Source of the DNA: Evansella cellulosilytica DSM 2522 | Lineage (GTDB): Bacteria > Bacillota > Bacilli > Bacillales > Salisediminibacteriaceae | Assembly: GCF_000177235.2 (NCBI RefSeq) | Contig: NC_014829.1 | Coordinates: 2,418,001-2,482,000 of the forward strand | Length of the DNA stretch: 64,000 nucleotides | Direction of reading: 5' to 3' | Part shown: in pieces, positions 1-6,215 of the stretch | How the letters are laid out: the number at the start of each line of letters is the position of its first letter | Numbering within the stretch: the first letter of the stretch is position 1 | The notes under the pieces: model-generated | The model's database searches: none | What the model was told of the DNA's origin: nothing | What the model saw: the letters and a program-made list of their open reading frames with translations, nothing else | Position numbers and translations under genes: made by a program

Positions 1-1993
1 TATCACTATTACTATACCCCTTAAGAACTAAATCTAAAACATCCAACTCACGTTTAGATAGCTTTAAATCCTCTGTTATTTTTGATTTAGGTGATCGTTC
101 CTCCATATTTATAGGAGATTTGTTTTCACTTGATATCATAATCTCGCTTTCAGTTATATTTACTTGACTAATAAATTGAATAAATGAACTTCTTTTACTT
201 TCCGATATATGAGTTAGGTTGCGGATACTTTCTATGTTTTCATTATGGAGTACATAGTGTGATATTAGAGCTAGAATATCAGATTTTTCATTCAATGCAA
301 CTTTTCTTTCTACTGCTTCCCAGTAGCCTTCTAATATTGATAATATGTTTTGGTCACTTATATACTCCTTTAGAAACTCTGGTCTATATGAAATCAGTTG
401 ACTTGCTTTATCCATCGCATCATCAAGTGGCCTATTTGTATAAACTAAATATTCGAGGAGAATTTTCCTCACTTTCTCATTTAAGTGGAATTGTTCAAGG
501 TTTGTATGCTGTAATGAGTAATAAAGCATTGTAATGGCTTTATTATCAGGCATATGACTTTTGTTGTTTAAACGGAGATGAATCGAGATACCACCTGCTA
601 CTGCTAGTGAAGCTAAAAAGGAACGATAGCTATCACTTTTAGTTTGATCAGAAATGCCAACACATAAAACACCGTAGAGCTTTTGATTAAAGAATAGGGG
701 AAACTCAAGTACTTCAGTTCCCCAACTAGTAGTACTACTAGTATAATTGAAATTTAATTTTTTTAATGCCTCTGCTGATAAAAACCTTGTAGCTACATGT
801 TGACAGTAATCGTTTATTTCAATTTGTGACATACCTCTAGAAACGATATCAACTTTATTATGATCTTCTTCATTTATAAATAAAATACATGAAAATGGAC
901 CTCTAACAATATTAATACTAATGTCTACAAGGATATACAGTACTCTCTTAATATCCTCTACTGATGTGATAACCTTGAATATTTCGTTAAATGTTGATAG
1001 CTTCATTAAGTGATTATGTTGATCTTCCTTTAATGTTTCCATTGTAGAAAGTGTACTTAATAGAGTAGCGTATATCTTGAAATTCTCGATATCATGTTCG
1101 TAAAGCATTTTGTCACTACTCAATCCAAATAAAACACCATAAACTTTGTTATTTACGTAAAATGGTGTACATATTAATGATTGAACCTCAATACCATTTC
1201 TAGTGAATAAGTTTACCCTAGGATCTGTACTAATATCTCTCCAAAACTGTGGTTTATTTGTTGCGAGCGCTTGACCTAAAAAGCCTTCTCCTATTTGAAA
1301 CGTATGTCCGTATAACTTATCACCATCTTTACCCGTCGTAGAAACAACAGAAAAAAGATCATTTTCTGTTTCTATTGCTGCACCAATGATATCAATATTC
1401 ATATTTGACACTTGAAGACTCTTAATAAATGAAGAAACGGTAACAGTTCCTTGTATAATACAATCTAAGCTCTCGTTAACTAATTTCAAATGCTCTTCCC
1501 CTTGCTTTTTTTCAAACAAGACTCTAGATTTATAAGTAACGATTTTTGAAAACTCATTTATTTGCTTGAACTTGTATTGAATTTCTTGTTGATCAAGGAT
1601 AGTGACATTATTCAAGGCTAATGTTAATTGCTCTGTTTCAGAAAAAAACTGTGAAACCCGTGTATAAAGATATTTTTTTGTAAATGCATCTACGATATAA
1701 CCAGCTATAATAAAATACCGATTACCACCACTTGGAATAATTGGAGAAACGATTACCTTCCCACCAAGTGGACTATCGACAAGGACAGTATGCTTAATAG
1801 CAAGAAGTGGTTGTAAAAACTGAGCAAAATACGACTTATGACCATATTTTTCATATACAAGCTCTGTAAATGAACAGTTTCCACTAACTGTAGTTAGTTC
1901 ATTACCAGTGCTATCGACAATAACGATATTTAAACCTGTTAAAGCTGAAAATGCATCTTGTACATGTTGATTAAATTTAAACATCTGATTCAT
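1..1993 (-). CDS. GAF-domain LuxR-type transcriptional regulator, 3'-truncated by window edge
   Basis: I translated this open frame by eye from the complement: it starts MNQMFKFNQH and stays open for 664 codons to base 1, so the C-terminus lies outside the window. Residues about 1-125 form a small-molecule-sensor-like region that vaguely resembles the PocR sensory domain. Two GAF-like modules follow (about 185-350 and 365-510; e.g. QIGEGFLGQALATNKP). After a helical stretch the last visible residues (KLSKRELDVLDLVLKGYSNSD, split here only by the edge) match the start of a LuxR/NarL helix-turn-helix. The ATG overlaps the stop of the upstream 80-codon gene (ATGA), which implies translational coupling in one operon with the KaiC-like ATPase. 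Role inferred: output transcription factor of that operon; the ligand is unknown. Confidence 0.85.
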   Translation of the reverse strand, partial: MNQMFKFNQHVQDAFSALTGLNIVIVDSTGNELTTVSGNCSFTELVYEKYGHKSYFAQFLQPLLAIKHTVLVDSPLGGKVIVSPIIPSGGNRYFIIAGYIVDAFTKKYLYTRVSQFFSETEQLTLALNNVTILDQQEIQYKFKQINEFSKIVTYKSRVLFEKKQGEEHLKLVNESLDCIIQGTVTVSSFIKSLQVSNMNIDIIGAAIETENDLFSVVSTTGKDGDKLYGHTFQIGEGFLGQALATNKPQFWRDISTDPRVNLFTRNGIEVQSLICTPFYVNNKVYGVLFGLSSDKMLYEHDIENFKIYATLLSTLSTMETLKEDQHNHLMKLSTFNEIFKVITSVEDIKRVLYILVDISINIVRGPFSCILFINEEDHNKVDIVSRGMSQIEINDYCQHVATRFLSAEALKKLNFNYTSSTTSWGTEVLEFPLFFNQKLYGVLCVGISDQTKSDSYRSFLASLAVAGGISIHLRLNNKSHMPDNKAITMLYYSLQHTNLEQFHLNEKVRKILLEYLVYTNRPLDDAMDKASQLISYRPEFLKEYISDQNILSILEGYWEAVERKVALNEKSDILALISHYVLHNENIESIRNLTHISESKRSSFIQFISQVNITESEIMISSENKSPINMEERSPKSKITEDLKLSKRELDVLDLVLKGYSNSD

Positions 1994-2232
1994 ATTAACA
2001 TCTCATCTATTTGGTTAATTTTTGGCTGGACGTATCGATAAATGGCTGAATCGCCTTCTCCGATCATCTCAAGTATAGTACTATGTACTAATTTTTCTAG
2101 TACAGGCTGTAAGTCTATTGGATTTCTACCTAGTCGTCTACCTAGTCCATGTAACGTCTCGTAGGAGTATGGGTTTTCTTGGAAAAATATCGTGCATTCC
2201 ACTTCTAAAGGATTAAAGTTTAATGGTTCCAT
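1990..2232 (-). CDS. Small winged-helix-like protein in KaiC-like operon
   Basis: This 80-residue protein has the helix/helix/strand pattern of a winged helix: SYETLHGLGRRLGRNPIDL then a helix LQPVLEKLVHSTILEMI and a wing-like strand AIYRYVQPKI. I do not recognise a named family. It lies between the KaiC-like ATPase gene and the GAF/LuxR gene, overlapping the latter by 4 bases (ATGA). Its ribosome site is a run of eight G residues that begins with the last base of the upstream TAG stop, so translation of all three genes looks coupled. It could bind DNA or act as a protein adaptor; that is inference. Confidence 0.75.
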   Translation of the reverse strand: MEPLNFNPLEVECTIFFQENPYSYETLHGLGRRLGRNPIDLQPVLEKLVHSTILEMIGEGDSAIYRYVQPKINQIDEMLI

Positions 2233-2243
2233 TGAACCCCCCC

Positions 2244-3674
2244 CTATATTAACCTTATAAAAGGCTTCGACTGTATATTTTGTACTAATAAAGGTTGTGA
2301 CATAATTCCTTGTGGGGATTTCCTTACTTGAAAATACTGGTAGTTACCATCTACCCATGTTTGTAATACACCATTACACGTTCTTTCTAAAAAGCTAGCA
2401 GTTTCACTCCCTATTTCTGTGAAGTTACATAATGCCAATAAAGTAATACCCGAAGAACTTGTTTTTGCCACCTCTGCAGGAAAATGCTTCTTTACGAAGT
2501 CCCTCCCTCTCTGAGAAACTACTGTATTTAAGTCATAATAGATAAACCATCTTTCATCCCTTTCTAAACTCTTTTCAACGACTGGCGTTAACGTTTCAAT
2601 AATCGCTTTGTTATATTGCTCATTGTCAAAATTGTGCACCTTTATAACAGATGATTTGTATGCATCTGGAATTGGCCTATCATAGTGCTCAATAAAATAA
2701 ATCTTTTTTTGTTTTGCGAGCGCTTCTATATCAACACCAAATAAACGATATAAATGCTCCATATCTAAAATCGTCATTAAACTAGACAATAGTATGACTA
2801 TATTTTCTCCGGCAAGTGCTCTTTTACTAATAATAGATCCGATGAAATATTTATAATTAGCTTTACTATTCGTATCTAATATTAAGGAAGTCCCCTTTTG
2901 GATACCTCCTAATAGTAATCTATCAAGAGCAGGAACTCCTGTACTAATAGTTGTATCTTCATGCAATGTAATTGCTTTATCCTCAACCATGGATAAGGAA
3001 GGGATTAAATCAATACCTGCATTATTGATACGGTAAATATGCTCCCCTTCTTTAATACAACAGCCACGCATTTTGAGAACCTCTAATGTTCTTTTTCTGT
3101 ATATGGTATGATGTCCCTGTAATGATAACCGAATAACCCCATCTAAAACGTAACTTACAAAAGGAATTTCTTCTTCCGATTTATTAGTTTGTTCATGAAT
3201 TAATATAGAAGATAAACGATGCTTCCTTAAAATATTTCTTATTGTATAAATATTGTCTCTCGCTTCTTTTTGATTTTCCATTCCAAAGCTAAAGAGGCTC
3301 AAGCTATCAATAACAATTCTTTTACAATTAATTTCTTTTATTACTTGATCAAAAATACCATTGGATTTTTTCATTTGCTCTAACAAAACATCTGGAGATA
3401 TACAAATAACCCTTAGCTTATTTTCCTTTTCAAGAGATTTTATATCCCACCCGAATGAATCCATATCGTTATATATTTGATCTGGAAACTCTTCAAATGT
3501 AATATAAATTCCGGATTCATTGTTGTTTAATGCGCCATCATATAGAAATTGCATTCCTAATATAGTTTTGCCTGTTCCTGGCGCTCCTTCTAGCAATATA
3601 GAAGAACCAGTAGGAAATCCCCCATTTAAAATATAGTCTAATCCTTCTATACCTGATGTCGTATATGTATACAT
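2244..3674 (-). CDS. KaiC-like double RecA-fold ATPase
   Basis: A 476-residue protein of the KaiC/RadA-like ATPase family with two tandem RecA folds, close to cyanobacterial KaiC in length (about 519). Domain 1 (about 1-235) is intact: Walker A GAPGTGKT at 30-37, the paired catalytic glutamates ITFEE at 61-62, Walker B RIVIDSLS around 119-126. Domain 2 (about 243-476) keeps the family opening STGVPALDRLLLGGI, but its P-loop position reads DTNSKANYK at 268-276, so nucleotide binding there is probably lost, and no paired glutamates are seen. A strong ribosome site (AAAGGGGG) precedes the ATG. It heads the operon with the winged-helix and GAF/LuxR genes. Function as a signalling ATPase is inferred; nothing shows clock activity. 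Confidence 0.85.
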   Translation of the reverse strand: MYTYTTSGIEGLDYILNGGFPTGSSILLEGAPGTGKTILGMQFLYDGALNNNESGIYITFEEFPDQIYNDMDSFGWDIKSLEKENKLRVICISPDVLLEQMKKSNGIFDQVIKEINCKRIVIDSLSLFSFGMENQKEARDNIYTIRNILRKHRLSSILIHEQTNKSEEEIPFVSYVLDGVIRLSLQGHHTIYRKRTLEVLKMRGCCIKEGEHIYRINNAGIDLIPSLSMVEDKAITLHEDTTISTGVPALDRLLLGGIQKGTSLILDTNSKANYKYFIGSIISKRALAGENIVILLSSLMTILDMEHLYRLFGVDIEALAKQKKIYFIEHYDRPIPDAYKSSVIKVHNFDNEQYNKAIIETLTPVVEKSLERDERWFIYYDLNTVVSQRGRDFVKKHFPAEVAKTSSSGITLLALCNFTEIGSETASFLERTCNGVLQTWVDGNYQYFQVRKSPQGIMSQPLLVQNIQSKPFIRLI

Positions 3675-3797: not shown

Positions 3798-4679
3798 TTA
3801 ATAAAAATTAGTAATAAAATTGTAAAATAATTGTTCAGTTGGTAAAAGTGAACGGTCTTTTGGAGTAATAATACCGACAGATCTTTTCAAATTTGGCTTT
3901 CTTAATGGTATCTTTACTGTTGATTTAGGAATACTATCCATTAATGTCATTTCTGGCATTAATGTAACCCCAAGACCAGCTGACACTAAACCTTTTAAGG
4001 CATCTACGTCATCACCTTCAAAAGCGATTTTTGGTTCAAAGCCAATCTCTTGGCATGCATCCAACACGATCTTTCTATAAGTAAACCCTTCTGGAAGAAG
4101 TACAAAGGGATCGTCAATAAGGTCTAATAAATCTATTGTTTTATAATATGCCATTGGATGGTTTGCTGGTAATAGTGCGACAACATTTTCGTGAAATAAT
4201 ACTTTAGTATCTATATTTCTTTCTTCTTTAACAATAGGTGCTATTAATGCCAAATTGAAATAACCTTTCCTAACACTGTCAACGAGTTCATTGTAGAGTG
4301 CTTGCTTCAGATGAAATTGTGCCTCAGGATATAGTTGGCGAAATGCGTAAATAGCTCTCGGCAGTGTGTATGCCGCAAGACTACTTGGAAATGCAATACG
4401 AACAGTACCCTTTTCTGGCTCTAAATAATCTAACACTTCTTTTTTTGCGTCCTCCATTAAGTTCATTGCATGCTTTACTCTTTCTAAAAATAACTTACCG
4501 ATTGGCGTTAATTTAACAGATCTACCATCTCGAATAAATAAATCGACACCTAATTCTTTCTCTAAATTAAAGATTTGTCTACTAACAGCCGATTGTGCAA
4601 CATGTAGCGCATAAGCTGCATCTGTAACATGCTCACGATCTGCAACTTCAATGAAATATTTGATCTGTCTAAATTCCAA
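3798..4679 (-). CDS. gltC: LysR-family regulator, GltC-like
   Basis: LysR regulator of 293 residues: N-terminal winged helix (FRQIKYFIEVADREHVTDAA, then HVAQSAVSRQIFNLEKELG) and a periplasmic-binding-like effector domain (LVSAGLGVTLMPE). It tracks B. subtilis GltC over its length, including KLTPIGKLFLE and PEGFTYRK. GltC activates glutamate synthase genes; here the gene is instead divergent from an NADP-type glutamate dehydrogenase, so control of gdhA is the likely job. The start is TTG at 4679, with AAGGAGGGAG eight bases upstream. The symbol rests on similarity, not on a gltAB neighbour. Confidence 0.8.
   Translation of the reverse strand: MEFRQIKYFIEVADREHVTDAAYALHVAQSAVSRQIFNLEKELGVDLFIRDGRSVKLTPIGKLFLERVKHAMNLMEDAKKEVLDYLEPEKGTVRIAFPSSLAAYTLPRAIYAFRQLYPEAQFHLKQALYNELVDSVRKGYFNLALIAPIVKEERNIDTKVLFHENVVALLPANHPMAYYKTIDLLDLIDDPFVLLPEGFTYRKIVLDACQEIGFEPKIAFEGDDVDALKGLVSAGLGVTLMPEMTLMDSIPKSTVKIPLRKPNLKRSVGIITPKDRSLLPTEQLFYNFITNFY

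Positions 4680-6215
<1,536 letters not shown>

Follow-up and report, generated by a model that had tools for sequence, protein, structure and literature searches.

A KaiC-like ATPase, a small winged-helix-like protein and a LuxR-type regulator as a putative switch for cyclic di-GMP genes in Evansella cellulosilytica

Three adjacent genes of Evansella cellulosilytica DSM 2522 may encode a switch in which a KaiC-like ATPase gates a LuxR-type regulator of cyclic di-GMP (c-di-GMP) genes, with a small winged-helix-like protein (wH) as the coupler. From the sequence comparisons below we put the probability of this reading at about 55%. The genes lie at the left edge of the window, the 64,000-nucleotide (nt) stretch analyzed here, which spans positions 2418001-2482000 of a single-contig genome of 4.68 Mb (contig NC_014829.1). 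KaiC is best known for its central part in the cyanobacterial clock; the role of its many relatives that occur without KaiA or KaiB is largely open. An original prediction made from the window alone proposed that the three genes form a sensory switch in a cell with no Kai clock; its observation is confirmed, and its interpretation as a whole is partly supported. Compared loci and genomes carry L and G numbers, respectively.

The three genes are read from the minus strand in the order KaiC, wH, regulator. The KaiC stop codon falls 11 nt before the wH ATG, inside a G-rich ribosome site, and wH meets the regulator gene at an ATGA junction; together with the open reading frames (ORFs), these junctions confirm the coupling that had been claimed. 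The KaiC-wH spacing is 11-17 nt in all 10 loci measured among 16 three-gene loci, and the overlap between wH and the LuxR gene is 1-16 nt in nine of the 10 (L172 has a 30-nt gap). Extension to the left of base 1 completes the regulator gene, which encodes 708 amino acids (aa; L003:8868-10994) and ends 133 nt beyond the window, and it also reveals the palindrome and the c-di-GMP unit described below. The C-terminal GerE helix-turn-helix (HTH) scores above its cut-off and places the protein among LuxR/GerE-type transcription factors. Of the two GAF modules and LuxR helix first described, the helix and the first GAF domain are clear and the second GAF is weak; an N-terminal PocR domain had been missed.

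Relatives of these genes occur in several arrangements. Type A, with KaiC, wH and a separate GAF-LuxR gene, comprises 16 loci (L003, L017-L023, L171, L172, L177-L182) and provides the conserved neighborhood for which a search had been proposed; the LuxR gene is broken in L021, whereas L182 has a split KaiC gene and a PocR-GAF model match that begins at model position 185. Type B consists of KaiC followed by a fusion of wH to a LuxR HTH without a sensor, and is found in eight loci (L004 of the same genome, L024-L027 and L183-L185; KaiC is broken in L027). The absence of any further input domain makes type B the best argument for an action of KaiC on the LuxR protein through wH, and this type lends weight to the go-between role first suggested for the small protein. 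In type C, represented by three relatives outside the class (L190, L192 and L194), a single KaiC-like ATPase is accompanied by a V4R-like protein (above the Pfam cut-off in one of the three), wH and a PAS histidine kinase. L188 combines KaiC and wH with a separate LuxR protein. This gene order ties the KaiC ATPase to sensor and output modules, as in a KaiC-like signaling hub.

Some of these loci are damaged. The PocR-GAF-LuxR gene of L021 (L021:3692-8728, genome G071) is interrupted by a stop codon, and the two genes beside it look like what we take to be an IS21-type transposase pair. The wH frame is open although KaiC is broken by many stops in G105 (L027) and split between two frames in G602 (L182).

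Co-occurrence, together with the conserved order, upholds the functional link that had been proposed among the three genes. A survey of 299 genomes of the order (KaiC at E up to 1e-10, wH at E up to 1e-5, PocR-GAF-LuxR at E < 1e-60) found KaiC in 12 genomes (degraded in one, G105), wH in 15 and PocR-GAF-LuxR in 12; the last family reaches 19 genomes at E < 1e-20, of which seven under 106 bits were excluded from the counts. wH is present in 12/12 genomes with KaiC versus 3/287 others (Fisher p = 5e-19), where some genomes contributed rows to the wH alignment, so that their own hits are not independent, and the absence elsewhere is independent. All 16 wH places in this survey adjoin either KaiC (13) or a PocR-GAF-LuxR gene (three: G090, G212 and G213), and G155 has a PocR-GAF-LuxR gene with neither wH nor KaiC. 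Among class and phylum genomes, wH occurs in 26 of 54 KaiC-positive and none of six KaiC-negative genomes; it lies within 2.1 kb of KaiC in 24 of the 26 and on another contig in two. One wH each is also found in 37 of 120 chosen sources (2.19 Mb; most chosen for KaiC, and the window and L003 overlap), always within 2.5 kb of KaiC or a LuxR gene. In the order the unit is thus uncommon yet conserved. We regard the sequence evidence for linkage of the KaiC, wH and LuxR genes as strong.

Farther away, wH lies directly 5' of KaiC in two Anaerolineae/Chloroflexi records (L029 and L031). It was not found in the other 78 of the 80 loci among the matches listed, some of which are on short contigs, and no wH was detectable in three Fibrobacteres KaiC loci (L030, L032 and L034) that belong to the same part of the tree as wH-bearing KaiC. 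A single clade of wH-bearing KaiC was considered and rejected: a domain-1 tree of 129 rows needs five label changes versus 33 in shuffles, which indicates clustering and not one clade (this tree carries a long-branch warning, and L143-L158 were labeled according to whole-genome wH hits). The matches listed in the KaiC homologue search (at least 80 loci) include 70 from Pseudomonadota and 10 others by title, with none titled Bacillota. A plasmid search returned 283 records, all below 60% identity; among the 30 rows listed, none exceeds 31%. A phage search returned no matches.

The original prediction held that independent occurrence of the three families would count against it, and a limited degree of independence is seen: KaiC-wH occurs without PocR or GAF in the fused type, and G090, G212 and G213 have wH with PocR-GAF-LuxR but lack a KaiC match at E 1e-10. 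Those three genomes are what one would expect if wH and the PocR-GAF-LuxR protein were the real ligand-responsive regulator and KaiC an optional modulator, such as an energy-state gate or an anti-activator, in some lineages. We consider this unlikely, because KaiC is the only obvious input of the fused loci, which have no PocR or GAF domain, and because the KaiC-wH pair also turns up where the PocR-GAF model has no match, namely in the two Anaerolineae/Chloroflexi records and in relatives from the phylum but not the class. wH is the constant part of the system, and KaiC, wH and PocR-GAF-LuxR are not obligatory together.

The assignment of the ATPase to the KaiC superfamily rests on a Pfam PF06745 match (E 1.2e-62; domain score 211.7 bits versus a cut-off of 26.6), on KaiC chains in the PDB (phmmer E 4e-56) and on comparison of its predicted model with KaiC structures (Foldseek E 8e-36, template modeling score about 0.7), a model that is confident in domain 1 and of low confidence in domain 2. 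It shares with cyanobacterial KaiC this fold, the tandem RecA-type domains and the Walker and paired-glutamate motifs of domain 1. An alignment of 21 rows (20 relatives from the class and one from the phylum; Table 1) verifies that domain 1 is intact and that the domain 2 P-loop is degenerate, as first described; the paired glutamates are replaced by QE in the paralog from the same genome and by DV in L183. GxxxxGK[ST] is absent from domain 2 in all 21 rows, and both P-loops are intact in 5/5 aligned relatives from outside the class.

A timing device, in which the ATPase would keep time as a slow hourglass or oscillator, to be read by the LuxR factor, is compatible with the family, the fold and the retained catalytic and KxRG residues of domain 1. 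We judge it very improbable. The second P-loop is lost throughout the alignment, the circadian KaiC model TIGR02655 scores only 130.9 bits versus an equivalog cut-off of 546.25, and KaiB is above cut-off in 0/15 genomes (one sub-threshold match, in G608), in a search whose controls matched in six of 14 cases, Synechococcus elongatus among these. A Kai clock is therefore unlikely, in agreement with the missing clock partner that had been predicted. A weak match to GvpD (E 2e-4; 21.5 bits, under the cut-off of 24) is also present. In gas-vesicle control by GvpD and GvpE, a KaiC-type P-loop protein governs a transcription factor, which is what the gated-regulator reading proposes here, with a different partner and a different output. 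KaiC has reportedly been studied in Pseudomonas as well.

Table 1. Features of the three-gene operon in the window (row counts refer to the 21-row KaiC alignment)
Feature	Positions	Strand	Evidence
KaiC-like ATPase, 476 aa, two RecA-type domains	2244..3674	-	Pfam KaiC PF06745, PDB KaiC, Foldseek
Walker A GAPGTGKT, domain 1, residues 30-37	3564..3587	-	P-loop in 21/21 rows
Paired glutamates E61-E62	3489..3494	-	EE in 19/21 rows
Walker B aspartate D123	3306..3308	-	21/21 rows
DTNSKANYKY replacing the domain 2 P-loop, residues 267-276	2847..2876	-	S in 20/21, Y[K/R] in 21/21 rows
wH, 80 aa, winged-helix-like, constant partner	1990..2232	-	KaiC-adjacent conservation; fold weakly supported
PocR-GAF-(GAF)-LuxR regulator, truncated at base 1	2..1993	-	Pfam PocR, GAF and GerE above cut-off
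PocR sensory domain, residues 9-145	1559..1969	-	PF10114, 32.8 bits, cut-off 23.9
GAF domain, residues 228-313	1055..1312	-	PF13185, 43.7 bits, cut-off 28.6
Start of LuxR-type HTH, cut at window edge	2..61	-	PF00196, 64.8 bits (full gene), cut-off 23.5

A candidate operator for the regulator lies behind its gene. The inverted repeat AATAGGA-N6-TCCTATT was first noticed in five loci, in the gap that follows the LuxR gene. With up to two mismatches it occurs within 400 nt 3' of this gene in 13 of the 16 type A loci (expected count 0.0084 per locus, from the remainder of the same loci), and in eight of 11 once the five discovery loci are removed. Its distance from the LuxR gene is 28-303 nt in the 12 type A loci for which a distance is given. 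It is also present behind the LuxR gene in one of six tested fused loci and one of four KaiC-less loci, and a separate scan of 11 loci found 13 sites versus 0.6 in shuffles. The E. cellulosilytica genome has only three sites with at most one mismatch, and two of these follow its two LuxR genes. The repeat resembles NreC and GerE sites. T-run hairpins were recognized by eye between the LuxR stop codon and the palindrome in L003, L019, L020 and L171 (a hairpin scan did not return the one in L003). Since these separate terminator-like hairpins come first, the palindrome is less likely to be a terminator itself and would fall in the promoter region of the unit that follows.

A second motif, ATAAGA-N6-GGTGATATAC (L003:8588-8609, minus strand), is found 5' of the unit behind the palindrome, and also in G197, G204, G312 and G042. 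It is 24-27 nt from the palindrome in E. cellulosilytica, G204 and G312 and farther away elsewhere, and it is present at the locus in five of six tested KaiC genomes (not in G045). This motif 2 may serve as a core promoter or be a site of some other kind.

In E. cellulosilytica, the unit that the palindrome precedes consists of a 73-aa ORF and the genes for a PAS-GGDEF-EAL-PAS-histidine-kinase protein and for a PilZ protein. A 70-77 aa ORF is first in the unit beyond the palindrome here (L003:8285-8506, minus strand) and in L017, L019, L020 and L171; the L019 copy is weakly similar to wH (E 0.004). GGDEF/EAL or PilZ genes are often among the genes that follow the LuxR gene. At least nine of 12 type A genomes tested, and at least one of four fused ones, have a GGDEF gene no more than 9 kb from KaiC; about 0.7 would be expected for 10 of the 12 type A genomes (G335 and G608, both without such a gene, are left out), and these counts are not independent because the loci share descent. 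In G312, the palindrome and motif 2 are also found 5' of an unlinked GGDEF-EAL-kinase-PilZ unit, which is homologous to the unit in E. cellulosilytica (47% over 468 aa and 41%). The site therefore follows the target unit and not only the 3' end of the LuxR gene. In this region of G312 (L237:2415-7861), the unlinked unit is itself followed by a GGDEF gene, and the gene before it presumably encodes a protein like methyl-accepting chemotaxis proteins. A FapA-type protein is among the next genes in L022.

The small protein has no Pfam family match, and its profile matches to solved structures are weak (ADAR1 Z-alpha, E 0.001; AdcR, E 0.004). Both are nucleic-acid-binding winged helices, which raises the alternative that wH is a DNA-binding co-regulator on motif 2 and that KaiC controls its DNA binding. 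The presence of motif 2 in the same promoters would fit this arrangement, as would the basic or neutral isoelectric points (pI) of wH from phylum relatives (6.9-10.5) and of the fused paralog in E. cellulosilytica (9.7, in a fused-type range of 5.3-9.7). According to PMC13286277, the small winged-helix regulator CsmR and the KaiC-like protein CirA of Haloferax volcanii have overlapping motility regulons, a parallel to the pairing described here; CsmR binds DNA itself, at TATCA-N4-TGATA, whereas here the LuxR-type protein is the likely DNA binder. However, the three-gene type has an acidic wH (pI 4.1-6.2, with a charge of about -6 for the 80-aa protein in the window), which speaks for a protein-binding role even though acidity is not uniform among the fused and phylum forms, and in our reading motif 2 looks equally like a core promoter. 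A wH that acts by binding motif 2 therefore seems quite improbable, and we continue to favor wH as a coupler between KaiC and the LuxR-type protein.

Around the operon, a GltC-type LysR gene (3798-4679) sits upstream of KaiC, with what we take to be a glutamate dehydrogenase-like gene divergent from it (3798-6215 for the pair). No clear common motif was found 5' of KaiC in 18 upstream regions by eye and k-mer counts. Convergent with the PilZ gene are three genes (L003:669-4437, plus strand) that presumably resemble a spore germinant receptor operon.

Several observations weigh against a KaiC-gated switch of this kind. The winged-helix fold of wH depends on profile matches no better than E 0.001, and its AlphaFold model is poor (predicted local distance difference test score of 59), with five helices and no strand and hence no wing. 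KaiC is not always needed, since wH is kept in three of four KaiC-less PocR-GAF-LuxR loci, and wH is absent from 28 of the 54 class and phylum genomes that carry KaiC. The palindrome with up to two mismatches is missing from three of 16 type A loci, five of the six tested fused loci (of eight) and three of four KaiC-less loci. Its genome-wide counts mostly do not exceed those of a reversed-pattern control (three versus two in E. cellulosilytica; four in the KaiC-less G305), G144 being the clearest exception (eight versus two), so that its position is the main evidence. A large palindrome regulon is not supported by these counts. Two extra perfect palindromes in G144, L235 (G144:C11:382313) and L236 (G144:C37:282964), have no c-di-GMP gene recognized in ORF lists, to which no family search was added. 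Motif 2 behaves likewise, with a count of seven in the E. cellulosilytica genome versus eight for its control, so that here too position is what mainly stands out. Finally, G304, G335, G608 and three of four fused loci have, among the matches listed, no GGDEF gene closer to KaiC than 9 kb.

The arrangement is similar in outline to archaeal KaiC-like ATPases, which have been described as signaling hubs (Makarova, Galperin and Koonin 2017, as cited in PMC5847659 and PMC13286277). There, too, a KaiC ATPase is joined to sensor and output modules, and an inactivated KaiC domain may or may not be present; the present system differs in belonging to a Bacilli-type bacterium, in its small and conserved partner wH and in its output through a LuxR protein or a kinase. 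PMC5847659 also describes PocR and the inactivated KaiC domains MEDS and DUF835. BcsE is a c-di-GMP-sensing protein with a predicted RecA/KaiC-like fold, but it regulates cellulose secretion, and no tie to a LuxR protein is evident in the accessible text of PMC7439463. Bacillus subtilis is without kaiC according to PMC8874327. A literature search by titles and abstract openings, in which subscription papers were mostly outside coverage, found no description of the KaiC-wH-LuxR arrangement.

In the switch that we favor, the KaiC-like ATPase, of whose two P-loops one works and the other is dead, would bind wH depending on its nucleotide state, and wH would in turn contact the LuxR-type output protein, so that the state of the ATPase could be passed onward. 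The PocR and GAF domains would supply a second, ligand-dependent input. The LuxR HTH would then bind AATAGGA-N6-TCCTATT, which lies no more than 400 nt beyond the end of the LuxR gene and in the promoter region of the unit that comes next, and in this genome the predicted output is altered c-di-GMP signaling via the GGDEF-EAL-kinase/PilZ unit. The domains, the conserved gene order, the co-occurrence, the fusions, the position of the palindrome and the neighboring genes are all visible in the sequences; from these we infer the KaiC hexamer and its ATPase activity, the contacts between the three proteins, binding to the palindrome, the ligand and the sign of the control.

More broadly, we suggest, with slightly less than even confidence, that these loci represent an old and so far undescribed class of KaiC signaling in which a dedicated small wH is the standard coupler to interchangeable outputs (LuxR, sensor-LuxR or histidine kinase) in the phylum of the window and in the two Chloroflexi records, and in which a dedicated palindromic operator mediates control of c-di-GMP output in Bacilli-type cells. 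The partner wH, the LuxR output, the candidate operator and the likely c-di-GMP targets all lie within a few kb, which makes this putative non-clock route from KaiC to transcription directly testable. If the proposal is correct, then c-di-GMP control in Bacilli-type cells would gain an input gated by an ATPase.

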